Positions 38,626 to 43,875 of a DNA stretch of 64,000 nucleotides are shown piece by piece; positions within the stretch are counted from its first letter, which is position 1, and every line of letters begins with the position of its first letter. The notes under the pieces were generated by a model, which saw nothing but the letters and a program-made list of their open reading frames with translations, made no database searches and was not told the origin of the DNA. Origin of the DNA: Candidatus Gastranaerophilales bacterium (lineage in GTDB: Bacteria > Cyanobacteriota > Vampirovibrionia > Gastranaerophilales > Gastranaerophilaceae); the NCBI GenBank assembly GCA_944323955.1, contig CALUUK010000002.1, forward strand, positions 1-64,000, given 5' to 3'. A program made the translations under genes and the position numbers.

Positions 38626-38662
38626 AAATTTGTATAATCATCTCAACGAAAGGAGAAGCAAG

Positions 38663-39271
38663 ATGGAAGAAAACAATACTGTAGAAGTTGAAACAAACAC
38701 GGAAAAACAAAATCATATTTGTTTTAAAAATCATTGTTGGAAAATGTGCCTTGCCATGGTAATTGCAGCATTTTTAGGCGGATTTCTTGCCGTATATTTT
38801 GTTGCCGACCAGATAATGGAAAAATCTTTGCGCAGACATTATATGATGATGCCCCCAAGATTTGAAAAGCACATGTTTGACGATATGGACAGAGAATTTA
38901 AAAAAGATATGGAAGATTTCGGTAAAATACTTGAAACGCCTATAAAAATGCCGGAATTTAAACATGGTGATTTTAATATGAATCCTTTTCTCATGCCCGA
39001 AGGAGTCAAAATAAAATCAGAATTTGAAGACGGATATTTCACTGTTACCGTCAGTCTGAAACCTTTTCAAGGAGATGAAAACAAAATAAATTATAATGTT
39101 ACGGGAAGAAAACTCACCGTATTTGGAGAATCTGAAGTGAAAGACGGCAAGACAGAGCAAACAGTTGCTTTCTCTCATGACTTTATATTACCTAAAGGTG
39201 CCGATACAATGCACATTTCAAAATACAAAGACGGAAAAAAATTAGTTATTTCCGTTCCCGTCAGAGATTAG
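38663..39271 (+). CDS. Membrane-anchored Hsp20/alpha-crystallin-like protein
   Basis: About 202 residues. A cytoplasmic N-terminus is followed by a membrane segment (MCLAMVIAAFLGGFLAVYFV, near residues 29-48), a Met-rich acidic linker, and a C-terminal alpha-crystallin-type domain (DGYFTVTVSLKPF to KKLVISVPV). Small heat-shock proteins hold unfolding proteins; a membrane anchor would place this one on the outer face of the inner membrane. AAAGGAGAAG precedes the chosen ATG. The C-terminal IxI motif of classical sHSPs is replaced by VISVPV. Confidence 0.78.
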   Translation: MEENNTVEVETNTEKQNHICFKNHCWKMCLAMVIAAFLGGFLAVYFVADQIMEKSLRRHYMMMPPRFEKHMFDDMDREFKKDMEDFGKILETPIKMPEFKHGDFNMNPFLMPEGVKIKSEFEDGYFTVTVSLKPFQGDENKINYNVTGRKLTVFGESEVKDGKTEQTVAFSHDFILPKGADTMHISKYKDGKKLVISVPVRD

Positions 39272-39571: not shown

Positions 39572-41824
39572 TTATATTTTTGATTCCAATAACTGTAAGC
39601 GTTTTTCAAATTCTGCATTCTTTTGTTTTAATTCCGCATTCTCTTTTTCAAGTTTCTGCAAACGTTCATCCAATCCGGTAACTTTTGCTGTTATTTCTTG
39701 AATTTGAACGCATAATTCTTTAATTGAATTAACCATGGCATAGAATATTTCTTCCGTTCTTATTCTGTAATATCCGTCTTTGCCTTTAGTTACGGAATTA
39801 GGAAATACTTTCATAAGCTGCTGGGCTATAACACCTACATGCGGAGTTTTTTCTTTATCATTCTTAAATGTAAAGTTTTTAACTTCAAGAGCATTGATTT
39901 CCTTAAGCCCTGCGGTATTATCACCGGAAATATTTTTCAATCTTGCATCACTGAATGCAGACGCTTCCAGTTTTGATATTCTTGCACTTAATTCATCATA
40001 TAATCTTTTTATATTTGAAACCAGATCCAGTGTACCTCCTGTAGTACCTCCAATAGTGTTTATCCCGGCAACACTTACCGGACCGTTAAATATTGATGTA
40101 AAATTAGAATTTGATTTACCGACACGGAATATACCGCTTGTTTTTTCGGCCGCCGTTGCTTTATCACCAAATACAAATGCTTTACCTGCGGTACTTGTAC
40201 TGATTTCCATAGAACCGCTTAATATATCAAGCCCCGAATTTGCTTTATAAATATGAATATAAGCGGAAGTCTTGTTTGCTGCGGAAGAGTCAAAGTTCTG
40301 CAATACCGTATCGCCGTTAGACATTAAAGTAAGCTGTCCGCCGTTAAGTCTGAAATCTGCATATTGTGTCACTTCACCTGCAGCGTTTTTAGTCTTTTTC
40401 GACGTAATATCAACAGCACTTAAACTCGTATTATCTATTGCGGATATCTGCAGTGCTTCATTGTTGATCCAAAGTTCACCTTGACTGTCCGCAGTATCAG
40501 TCTTAATAATATTCAAACGAACTTCATCCACACCTTGGCTTGCAATGTTTATACCAATAGCCTTTGACTCTGTTGCATTTGTTATAAGACTTAATGAACC
40601 TTTTCTGTTTACATTAGAAGTATCTACACCATTTGAACCGGAGTATGTCTCAATATTAAAGATCTTTGCATCTCCGTTAAAATTATTTACACTAAACCTT
40701 CTTGCATTTACATCCAAACTTTTCGGAACAATATTACCTGCTGTATCAAGATATGATTGCATTCTTCCGATTATAAGAGGAGCAACGTCAGTTGAATTAT
40801 CAGGAACGGAACCTATAAATAAAAGATGGCTGCCTGAACCTTCATCCAGATCATAATCTTCAATAAGCGTTTGAGCATATGCTTTTGTTGCCGCATCAAA
40901 TAAACCGTTAGCTGCATTTAATCCGATACATGTGCTGTAATGACCGGGGAATAAGCTGCAGGAATTGGTGCCTATTGCAGTATTACCGATACCTTCAATA
41001 TTGCTTGTGCCTAAAGAATTAAAACCGACTGCGGTATTATATCTTCCCGTAACATTATACTGCATTGCACCGGAACCTATTGCGGTATTACCGTTTGCAT
41101 TATGTATACCCGTATTATTAACAGACGTATCTTCGGAATAAATCTGGTCTGAATCCCGGTCTAAATTAAGACCTGCATTAAAACCGACAACCGTATTATT
41201 TGATGCAAATGTATTTTTAGAAAGTGCCATTTCACCAACTGCGGTATTATATGACCCTTGTACGTTTTTCATTAAAGAATAATGACCTAATGCCGTATTT
41301 TTACCCTGGAAAGTATTTGTTGTTGCAACCATATTTGCAAGTGTACCTATACCAAGACCGATATTGTGTTTTTCAAGTACCAGTCTGCCTGTATATAATG
41401 TATTCAGTTCAGTGGAATTAAGACTGTTATTCATTGTGTAAAAAGATATATGAGAATTTGCAATATCGGAATAAGTGCCGTCTGAAAGTCTTGACGATTG
41501 TTTTACAAGTGCCAGCTTATCACCCATATTTGTTATATTATTAGGATAATCGTCGCTTATATCGTTAAAGTCGGCTATATTTGCAAGATAAGAACCTAAT
41601 ATTGCCGGCGTCATAGATGTTAAGTACATATCACCTATAATTGCCGTTTGATTGGCGGCTTCACCAAAATATGCACTCGTACTGCTCGCCGACCATTGCC
41701 ATATAGAATCAGAACTTGCTGACTTTTTCGTAATTGTAGGAATTGCCGCAGATAACACCAAGCTGATTATCAACAAAGAAATCAACATTTCTGCAATTGT
41801 AAAACCGTGCAGTCTTTTATTCAT
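39572..41824 (-). CDS. Prepilin-like protein with YadA-head repeats and S74 self-cleaving chaperone
   Basis: A 750-residue protein of unusual architecture. Residues 1-34 are a type IV prepilin leader: cleavage site G7/F8, Glu at mature +5, then a hydrophobic helix. NTAxG-type repeats occur at 176, 193, 210, 246, 263 and 281 with a degenerate copy at 297, about 17 residues apart, as in YadA-type trimeric adhesin heads. The C-terminus is a peptidase S74 endosialidase chaperone: Ser625-Asp626 (SDARLKNIS) is the expected cleavage site, followed by PHVGVIAQQL and a coiled coil from about 715. It is the last gene of an operon with dciA and two tmk-like genes, overlapping dciA by four bases. A trimeric surface fibre secreted through pilus machinery is inferred. 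Confidence 0.92.
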   Translation of the reverse strand: MNKRLHGFTIAEMLISLLIISLVLSAAIPTITKKSASSDSIWQWSASSTSAYFGEAANQTAIIGDMYLTSMTPAILGSYLANIADFNDISDDYPNNITNMGDKLALVKQSSRLSDGTYSDIANSHISFYTMNNSLNSTELNTLYTGRLVLEKHNIGLGIGTLANMVATTNTFQGKNTALGHYSLMKNVQGSYNTAVGEMALSKNTFASNNTVVGFNAGLNLDRDSDQIYSEDTSVNNTGIHNANGNTAIGSGAMQYNVTGRYNTAVGFNSLGTSNIEGIGNTAIGTNSCSLFPGHYSTCIGLNAANGLFDAATKAYAQTLIEDYDLDEGSGSHLLFIGSVPDNSTDVAPLIIGRMQSYLDTAGNIVPKSLDVNARRFSVNNFNGDAKIFNIETYSGSNGVDTSNVNRKGSLSLITNATESKAIGINIASQGVDEVRLNIIKTDTADSQGELWINNEALQISAIDNTSLSAVDITSKKTKNAAGEVTQYADFRLNGGQLTLMSNGDTVLQNFDSSAANKTSAYIHIYKANSGLDILSGSMEISTSTAGKAFVFGDKATAAEKTSGIFRVGKSNSNFTSIFNGPVSVAGINTIGGTTGGTLDLVSNIKRLYDELSARISKLEASAFSDARLKNISGDNTAGLKEINALEVKNFTFKNDKEKTPHVGVIAQQLMKVFPNSVTKGKDGYYRIRTEEIFYAMVNSIKELCVQIQEITAKVTGLDERLQKLEKENAELKQKNAEFEKRLQLLESKI

Positions 41825-42156
41825 AAACTATCTTCTTTCCATATTTTATAGTTAAATTTTATATCTTTTATTTTAATACCCAGTTTTTCCGCTTTTTCTT
41901 CCACTAATGAAAATATTTTATCTTTTACAAAATATAATTCATTAGCAACAAAAGAATCAGCACATGCTATTGTTAGTATATTATCGGCAGAAAGTTCCCA
42001 AACTTTAGATAATTTGGCAATCTTATCTCCGATTATTTCTTCCCATGAATTAAATAATTCCTCACGGGCTTCTATTGTCGAAGTTTCTTTTTCAAACTGC
42101 ATCTCCTTAAACACTTCTCTCAGCAGCTCAAAATTAGAATTATTTAACCTTTTCAT
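41821..42156 (-). CDS. DciA-like (DUF721) protein
   Basis: A 111-residue DUF721 protein. The NSWEEIIGDKIAKLSKVWEL and DSFVANELYFVKDKI segments match the DciA core, which loads the replicative helicase DnaB in most bacteria lacking DnaC. It is shorter than typical DciA (about 150) and lacks an extended tail. It starts 39 bases after the tmk-like gene and overlaps the prepilin-fusion gene by four bases (ATGA). Confidence 0.78.
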   Translation of the reverse strand: MKRLNNSNFELLREVFKEMQFEKETSTIEAREELFNSWEEIIGDKIAKLSKVWELSADNILTIACADSFVANELYFVKDKIFSLVEEKAEKLGIKIKDIKFNYKIWKEDSL

Positions 42157-42194: not shown

Positions 42195-42857
42195 CTAAAC
42201 AACATCCAAAATATTTTTTACATTGGATATAATCTTTTTATGTATTTCTTTTTCGCTTAACGTACCATCAATAGAAATGAATCCGTATTCACTTTTCATT
42301 TTTTGATATTCGTCAAGACATTTATTTTGATACATTTTAAAACTGTTATAAAAATCATTGCTTAAACCTATATCCCTGCCTGATTCCCAATAATCAAGCC
42401 CGGTTGTTCCTATTATTCTTTTCAAAAGAATTTCAACGGGAACATCAAGATAAAAAGTCATATCGGGTTCGGGTGCATATTCATATAAATTTTTAACCCA
42501 TTCAATGTCATGTCCTCTTACAACATCACGGGCAAAAGCGGTATATACATATCTGTCAAGAATAACAACAAAACCCGCCTTAAGTGCAGGCAAAATAATA
42601 TTTTCAAATCTGTCGGCAAAATCTGCTGCATATAAAAGTGAAAAAGTCGTTGCATTTAATAAATTTCTCTCTTTCGCATCATTTATTGCATCAGCTATAA
42701 ATTTAGAGGTTTTCCACTCGCTTACCATAACTCCGTATGATTGATCTTCTATCCAGCGTTTTAACTTGCCGATCTGAGTAGATTTTCCGGAGCCGTCCGT
42801 TCCTTCTATTACTATTAACAGGCCTTCATAGCCGTTTTTTGATTTGTATCCGCTCAT
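42195..42857 (-). CDS. Thymidylate kinase-like protein (copy 1)
   Basis: A 220-residue P-loop kinase of the dTMP-kinase fold. The P-loop is GTDGSGKST and LDRYVYTAFARD is the DRY segment. The canonical REPGGT after the P-loop is replaced by SEWKTSK, so the substrate may not be dTMP. Its ATG follows the stop of the upstream paralogue with no gap. It is similar throughout to that copy. Confidence 0.85.
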   Translation of the reverse strand: MSGYKSKNGYEGLLIVIEGTDGSGKSTQIGKLKRWIEDQSYGVMVSEWKTSKFIADAINDAKERNLLNATTFSLLYAADFADRFENIILPALKAGFVVILDRYVYTAFARDVVRGHDIEWVKNLYEYAPEPDMTFYLDVPVEILLKRIIGTTGLDYWESGRDIGLSNDFYNSFKMYQNKCLDEYQKMKSEYGFISIDGTLSEKEIHKKIISNVKNILDVV

Positions 42858-43541
42858 TTATAATATAATTCCTTTTTCTGCAAGTACTTTTTTTACTTCT
42901 TCTCTGAAAAATAATTGTTTCTTATGTATACTTTCATTCGCATCAATTTCAACAAGATTATATTCGGTTATCATCTTTTTATATTCATCGTTAACGCGTT
43001 TTTGAAAAATTCTGTAGCTTTCATAAGGATCCGCGCTGATTTTTAAATCCATTCCCGCTTCATAAAATTTAGGTGAGCGGTTTGCACAAATTCTCTCCAG
43101 TGAAACATCCTCAGAAACTCTGAAATAAAGAGTCAAGTCAGGTTGAATTGCAAAACCGTAAACTCTTCTGACCCAATCGGCATCAACTCCTCTTGCAACA
43201 TCTCGCGCAAATGCAGTGTATACGTATCTGTCCGCAAGAACTATAAAACCTGCTTTTAATGCCGGAATTATGACCTGTTCCAGTCTGTCGGCAAAATCAA
43301 CAGCATGCAGAAGTGAAAAAGTTTTGGGACTCAAAAGATTTTTTTTCTTGGCAAGTTTTGTTGTCTGAGAAATTAAATCCGATGAGTTCCATTCGGTAAA
43401 AATAACATCCTGCTTAAGAGATTTCAGCCAATCTCTTAATATGACCAGCTGCGTGGACTTGCCTGAACCGTCAATTCCTTCAACACATATTAATGTCCCC
43501 GGGAAATTATGCATTTCATTAAATCTGGTTTTGTTTTTCAT
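42858..43541 (-). CDS. Thymidylate kinase-like protein (copy 2)
   Basis: About 227 residues. The P-loop is GIDGSGKST, with LADRYVYTAFARDVARG and TEWNSSD in place of REPGGT. Start chosen at 43541 by the MKNKTRFNEMHNFPG context; the frame to 43610 is open. It is adjacent to copy 1 with abutting stop and start, so the pair looks like a tandem duplication that has diverged. Either or both may supply dTTP synthesis, or a related nucleotide. Confidence 0.85.
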   Translation of the reverse strand: MKNKTRFNEMHNFPGTLICVEGIDGSGKSTQLVILRDWLKSLKQDVIFTEWNSSDLISQTTKLAKKKNLLSPKTFSLLHAVDFADRLEQVIIPALKAGFIVLADRYVYTAFARDVARGVDADWVRRVYGFAIQPDLTLYFRVSEDVSLERICANRSPKFYEAGMDLKISADPYESYRIFQKRVNDEYKKMITEYNLVEIDANESIHKKQLFFREEVKKVLAEKGIIL

Positions 43542-43875
43542 TATAAATCCTGTTTTTTTCCTTTTTCTGATAATAACATATATTATACCAAAATACTTGC
43601 CGCAATTCATTTTTATATATTTATCGGGGGTTTTTTACATGACAATTGTAACAAAATGTTAAAAGTGTAAATTATACACGATACATTTTTTTACATGCAG
43701 GGCATTAAATAAACATAAAGGAAAAAATGAGTAAATAAGTGTTTTCTTTCCTGATTCCTCTCTCTGATATATAGTGAAATTAGCCGATTTTAATCGGTTT
43801 TTTTATTGCAAAATTTCAGCTTTTATCTTTATTGTTTTCCCTTACATTATTTATTTTAACTTATTTATAATATCC
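43542..43875. other. Intergenic region with a possible small RNA
   Basis: About 330 bases between the tmk-like gene and tyrA, both on the minus strand. No frame of useful length is present. On the plus strand TTGTAA at 43646 and TAAATT at 43668 are a plausible promoter, and a terminator lies at 43784-43806, so the plus strand may make an RNA of about 130 bases. It would contain a three-codon ATG-AGT-AAA-TAA frame after AAAGGA. Confidence 0.35.
43784..43806 (+). terminator. Rho-independent terminator on the plus strand
   Basis: CCGATT-TT-AATCGG followed by seven T. No annotated plus-strand gene ends here. Confidence 0.65.

Follow-up and report, generated by a model that had tools for sequence, protein, structure and literature searches.

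A modular type IV prepilin of Candidatus Gastranaerophilales joining phage-fibre-like repeats to a putative S74 chaperone domain

The combination of a prepilin signal with an S74 domain (IPR012902-IPR030392) is among the 15 commonest modular pilin architectures in the survey of Raynaud et al. (2021, PMC8179133), where a peptidase function was suggested for it. In endosialidase and MYRF, a Ser-Lys dyad is needed for cleavage, which takes place only in the trimer, and in MyRF it is the C-terminal coiled coil that brings about trimerisation (PMC3742443, PMC8326128). The bond cut in MYRF lies before the serine (577|S578; PMC3742443). For the mosaic adhesive trimers (MATs) of Bdellovibrio bacteriovorus, self-cleavage and trimers have been shown experimentally; the mature tip of Bd3182 ends at A781, and S782 is catalytic (PMC10769870). 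In type IVb pili, the tip minor pilins TcpB (PMC9565799) and CofB (PMC10191384) are homotrimers, showing that a type IV pilus can carry a trimer of such a kind. Full-text searches, which left most subscription journals and supplements outside their scope, returned no paper describing a prepilin with an S74 domain as a trimeric self-processing pilin. The architecture has been known since 2021; what would be new, by analogy with characterised S74 proteins, is a self-cleaving S74 trimer on a pilin.

The window analysed here, a stretch of 64,000 nucleotides from a Candidatus Gastranaerophilales bacterium, contains one gene of this architecture, N_methyl and S74 being found in one protein. The ORF listing and translation place its ATG at 41824 on the minus strand; a plus-strand reading of 39572-41824 was dropped since it has stops throughout. 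The N_methyl match of Pfam covers residues 3-28 (E 5e-5, 23.1 bits against a cut-off of 21.2). The protein has the elements of a class III signal, a short charged leader with a Gly/Ala end, a hydrophobic helix and Glu +5, and the cleavage site G7/F8 recognised in the sequence-only reading is present (MNKRLHG^FTIAE, with E12 as Glu +5). Prepilin peptidase is expected to remove MNKRLHG after G7. F8, A11 and E12 are invariant in an alignment of 26 genus members, and all 84 leader-bearing relatives have G, A or S immediately before the cut site. A pilin globular domain could not be delimited in the window protein. The prepilin N-terminus had been thought unusual in such a fibre protein, a view that does not agree with the frequency of the architecture in the 2021 survey (PMC8179133).

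At the other end, the Peptidase_S74 match (50.8 bits against 22) begins with S625-D626-A-R-L-K630, thus containing the signature and the Ser-Asp...Lys(+5) dyad. S625, D626, R628, K630, G664, I666, A667 and Q668 are invariant in the genus alignment of 26 members. The S74 domain with Ser625-Asp626 and the following coiled coil, both proposed beforehand, are borne out by the Pfam match, by a predicted helix and by coiled-coil family matches, which are weak. The position of the cut had to be revised. It had been placed between S625 and D626; as MYRF and Bd3182 are both cut before the serine, the expected site here is F624|S625. The coiled coil is presumed to be the trimerisation element of the released chaperone, and 2 of 26 homologues match the MYRF_ICA family. 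A search of the PDB with a 26-sequence profile matched the MyRF ICA domain structure 7DC3 (E 1.2e-5) and the phage tail fibre 8JOV (E 3.3e-4). The AlphaFold2 model of the full-length monomer, with a pLDDT of 37.6, is uninformative, and a monomer cannot represent an intertwined trimer; the C-terminal monomer model reaches 64.4, the coiled-coil helix at 690-749 being its best-predicted part. A Foldseek search with the C-terminal model against PDB and BFVD gave nothing significant, the BFVD list consisting mostly of S74 and tail-fibre proteins.

Between the two conserved ends lie a repeat block and a variable middle. Six NT[AV]xG units start exactly at the residues given in the sequence-only reading (176, 193, 210, 246, 263 and 281), compared with a mean of 0.07 and a maximum of two units in the shuffled protein. 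A spacing of 17 residues is by far the commonest (115 cases in 26 homologues). The units had been assigned to a YadA head, and this label had to be given up. YadA head repeats have a period of about 14 residues, the window protein shows no Pfam match to YadA_head at E<=1, and its best PHROG matches are tail fibre and tail spike families. The YadA C-terminal anchor barrel is also absent by Pfam, the C-terminus being formed by S74 and the coiled coil. Given the lack of a YadA_head match and the 17-residue period, we refer to the units as phage-fibre-like NTAxG repeats. In tblastn searches, phage tail fibres were matched at 31–41% identity, each covering less than most of the window protein. The repeat block is presumed to form a beta-roll or beta-helix shaft, and the hypervariable middle to be the receptor-binding part.

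Table 1. Features of the window and loci in relatives (L numbers) referred to in the text
Feature	Position	Strand	Basis
S74 modular prepilin gene, 750 aa	39572..41824	(-)	ORF; matches to Pfam N_methyl and Peptidase_S74, each exceeding its gathering score
Class III leader peptide MNKRLHG, residues 1-7	41804..41824	(-)	N_methyl match 3-28; genus alignment
Hydrophobic pilin helix, residues 8-32	41729..41803	(-)	F8, A11 and E12 invariant in the 26-member genus alignment
NTAxG repeat block, residues 176-285, 17-residue period	40970..41299	(-)	PHROG tail spike match (143-296); tblastn matches to phage tail fibres
Hypervariable middle, residues 306-609	39998..40909	(-)	14-24% mean pairwise identity in genus; 46% to nearest relative
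S74 intramolecular chaperone domain, residues 625-678	39791..39952	(-)	Pfam E 2e-13; putative catalytic S625/K630
C-terminal coiled coil, residues 690-750	39575..39757	(-)	Helix 690-749 in model; weak Pfam coiled-coil family matches
dciA-like gene, directly upstream of the prepilin gene	41821..42156	(-)	Pfam DciA E 5e-10
Two adjacent thymidylate-kinase-like (tmk) genes	42195-42857 and 42858-43610	(-)	Pfam; mark the fixed locus in the genus
Three tandem S74 prepilin genes	L046 7515-12322; L049 7740-13605; L051 6264-9621; L059; L077		Families f6, f7
Poly-G S74 prepilin loci	L114, L116, L120, L121, L129, L131, L143		Genus g18
Poly-G prepilin loci	L157-L176		Several genera of the family

The named relatives are metagenome-assembled genomes of Candidatus Gastranaerophilales. 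S74 was found in all 35 sampled genomes of the window's genus, as a single match in 31 of them, and the window's genome has one copy. Across the phylum 107 of 386 sampled genomes have a match; within the same family some genera have no copy and others up to 11–12. Pfam identified S74 in 26/26 and N_methyl in 25/26 of the aligned genus members at E<=0.01. All 84 leader-bearing S74 prepilins retrieved have Glu +5 and the pattern S-D-x-[RKQ]-x-K; this set comprises the full-length genes with a leader found, and in a few cases it includes one genome twice, under different names (L003/L048). Most S74 matches lacking a leader are truncated by a contig end, the exceptions being L041 and L060, the latter a divergent S74 protein without leader.

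Mean pairwise identity among the 26 genus members is 78% in leader and helix (residues 1-32), 44% in the repeat block, 14–19% in residues 373-609, and 72% in S74 and coiled coil. With the nearest relative (L002) the corresponding values are 89% for leader and helix, 71% for the repeats, 46% for the middle and 82% for S74. Such conservation of both ends around a hypervariable middle, in a gene that keeps its place among housekeeping genes, fits an adhesin. The divergence of the middle is by itself no proof of this, since the neighbouring dciA gene is only 43–70% identical in the genus.

The dciA-like gene overlaps the prepilin start by four bases (ATGA), and this order is kept in relatives. The two tmk genes are 85–94% identical and syntenic in those genus members whose contigs reach that far. 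Most genus members with a long enough contig show the gene order prephenate-dehydrogenase-like, tmk, tmk, dciA, prepilin, the first gene being, as we take it from its sequence, prephenate-dehydrogenase-like. At 38630-39271 on the plus strand, the window also encodes an Hsp20-like protein in which a hydrophobic segment precedes the Hsp20 match; it may be a small heat-shock protein anchored in the membrane.

We consider it probable that the protein is a modular type IV (minor) pilin which forms a trimeric adhesin, is equipped with a disposable S74 chaperone and is shown on the pilus. A trimeric S74 fibre using a type IV pilus or type II secretion apparatus had been proposed from the sequence; without its YadA head, this stands as the best-supported reading, backed by the conserved end modules, the host machinery and the precedents of CofB/TcpB and the MATs. 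Trimerisation, cleavage, tip position and adhesion are predicted by analogy with characterised relatives. The prepilin would insert into the inner membrane via its N-terminal helix, and PilD would cut off MNKRLHG. Outside the membrane, three chains would join via the C-terminal coiled coil, and the S74 domains would fold the NTAxG shaft and the variable head into an intertwined trimer. Once the trimer is formed, S625/K630 would cleave F624|S625, and the 126-residue chaperone would depart. The mature trimer (residues 8-624), held by its three pilin helices, would then start or join a pilus and be pushed out through the secretin, its variable head at the outer end.

The described systems each share part of this design. 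The IPR012902-IPR030392 pilins share with the window protein a class III signal and a pilin helix at the N-terminus, onto which an S74 domain is grafted; there, S74 is regarded as a peptidase module, whereas here it would be a disposable trimerisation chaperone, the functional module being the repeat shaft and variable head before it. The MAT fibres (PMC10769870), which were compared by description, are surface adhesins built as S74 beta-fibres and encoded by the cell, with the same SDxxxK motif, variable tips and multiple paralogues. Their N-terminus consists of a signal peptide and, after it, a conserved beta domain of about 130 residues, in contrast to the prepilin leader and helix, and the predicted placement on a type IV pilus, of the window protein. 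MYRF (PMC3742443, PMC8326128) is likewise membrane-anchored, trimerised and cut by the Ser-Lys dyad of its S74/ICA domain, 7DC3 being the nearest solved structure by profile. Its membrane segment follows the ICA domain, and cleavage frees the N-terminal trimer, whereas in the window protein the segment precedes S74 and the chaperone would be freed. CofB and TcpB, minor pilins of large size, occupy the pilus tip as homotrimers, much as proposed here; neither an S74 domain nor self-cleavage is described in their case. PDB sequence searches with the single protein (E<=1) and the 26-sequence profile (E<=0.01) returned no CofB or TcpB chain, which excludes only detectable sequence similarity.

In the host genome, a cluster on contig C7 encodes the sole secretin, a PilB-like and a PilC-like protein; a second PilC-like protein is present, and one prepilin peptidase is found (a Peptidase_A24 gene with the A24 N-terminal domain). 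N_methyl identifies six prepilins, of which only that of the window carries S74. A type IV pilus set was reported earlier for a termite-gut relative (PMC5877343). The same trimeric S74 fibre might use its prepilin-like helix as a mere anchor or as part of a secretion pseudopilus, being tethered in the inner membrane or periplasm, or exported outside the pilus. This we regard as unlikely, even though the gene lies apart from any pilus gene cluster, the secretin has a slightly higher score for GspD than for PilQ, and in other families assembly genes are found in the absence of S74. Pilus genes without any S74 match are seen in several relatives from families f2, f3, f5 and f8, from which it follows that the S74 prepilin is dispensable for pilus assembly generally. 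Against a mere anchor stands the complete conservation of Glu +5 in the 84 relatives. The two PilT/PilU-family ATPases (499 and 408 bits against an NCBIfam cut-off of 319) and a protein scoring higher as PilB than as GspE point to a retractile type IV pilus rather than a plain type II secretion system. Glu +5 is the classical determinant of pilus incorporation.

The reading of the 2021 survey, which predicts a peptidase activity for this modular pilin architecture (PMC8179133), would have the pilin carry S74 as an active peptidase for other proteins. We judge this very improbable: characterised S74 domains are intramolecular, trimer-dependent self-cleaving chaperones, and the fibre-like region directly upstream and the coiled coil downstream are arranged here as in self-cleaving fibres. 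Hardly credible is a prophage or contractile-tail fibre remnant with a fortuitously hydrophobic N-terminus, which the likeness of the NTAxG and S74 modules to phage tail fibres might suggest, but which is contradicted by the housekeeping neighbours in fixed synteny, the presence of S74 in all 35 sampled genomes of the genus, the strongly conserved leader, and the control S74 protein of a photosynthetic cyanobacterium (G076, L123 2554-4911), which adjoins a phage-tail-like gene, has no prepilin leader and is probably a contractile-tail fibre. A search of viral contigs with the window protein as query found no relative, and with the housekeeping synteny a phage or prophage origin of the locus was rejected. 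The S74 prepilin is a conserved gene of Candidatus Gastranaerophilales and no phage remnant.

In some related lineages the S74 prepilin is present in several copies. Families f6 and f7 have three tandem genes; in L046 and L049 a fourth prepilin-like gene without S74 follows the trio, with an N_methyl match only in L049. The runs in these two families resemble a minor pilin operon. Genus g23 (L106-L110, L124) usually has three S74 prepilins, a tandem pair and in most cases a convergent third across a short stretch. Copy numbers of one, two and four also occur among relatives. In a tree built on only 30 plus about 105 residues, the three paralogues form separate clades within f6 (support 0.80–0.999) and within g23 (0.82–0.99), and the sets of f6 and f7 group by family (0.72 and 0.91). 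From this grouping, sets of three may have arisen more than once. Three maintained paralogues would fit the formation of heterotrimers. A silent-cassette or shufflon model for multi-copy genomes, considered for their dispersed copies and convergent pairs, was mostly dropped, most copies examined having a plausible start codon. In one genome (G331, L112-L119), many S74 stop codons are followed by repeats resembling AAGTTATTAAGTTACTAGGTTAATAG and by an element, CGGTTCRCT..GCGAACGGAAT, that looks like a hairpin.

Some relatives show poly-G tracts in their prepilin genes. Among multi-copy genomes of genera g18 and g45, a tract of 10–11 G, a length that can be wrong in assembled genomes, lies upstream of the cleavage site in 7 of the 26 S74 prepilins examined. 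The Shine-Dalgarno-like ATG before the tract is in frame in two of the seven and out of frame in five, one of which (L114) has an in-frame start without a Shine-Dalgarno match. A run of G9 followed 15–45 bases on by the coding motif F-[ST]-L-A-E occurs in 44 of 191 family genomes, compared with zero matches for the reversed pattern in the listed genomes. The 21 such loci examined at ordinary prepilins, in eight genomes, have tracts of 10–13 G: two are in frame, and of the 19 out-of-frame ones 10 are in one phase and 9 in the other; five further prepilin tract loci in G116 are all out of frame, in one phase. In the window's genus, tracts are in frame in L043 (G9) and L056 (G10), and in L041 the leader is intact and a G10 tract after about residue 69 (about nt 1710, reverse strand) shifts the frame. 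Overall, the tracts of 9–13 G sit in the prepilin leaders or just past the pilin helix, downstream of Shine-Dalgarno-like ATGs, and most are out of frame.

The natural reading would be slipped-strand phase variation of prepilins; programmed slippage or pseudogene decay are the alternatives. Nine-base poly-G matches number roughly 150–430 per genome in G116, G368, G404, G122 and G185, versus 10 in the window's genome. Many tracts in the sampled part of G116 are away from any recognised prepilin motif, and in the listed parts the runs tend to one strand over long contig stretches (L146-L149). The window gene has no G or C run of at least eight, so that poly-G switching is inapplicable to it. Elsewhere the tracts suggest a large switchable pilin repertoire, a description of which was not found in the literature searched.

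Tentatively, and with more doubt than confidence, S74 might be viewed as a checkpoint in the assembly of pilus tips, in that the filament would be templated only by a trimer that has folded and cut itself, with its tip cleared and its three pilin helices aligned. The window's genus would then mostly form homotrimers, the sister lineages with three paralogues obligate heterotrimers, and some lineages would switch S74 and other prepilins by poly-G tracts. If the type IV pilin reading is true, the type IV pilus has acquired a folding and release device of phage fibres, by which trimeric adhesins that are very stable and can be exchanged could be built on it, and the catalogued ‘peptidase pilin’ becomes a self-trimming tip. 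This would provide a testable prediction of how trimeric minor pilins start filaments and of how the non-photosynthetic gut relatives of cyanobacteria, which have been little studied, attach.
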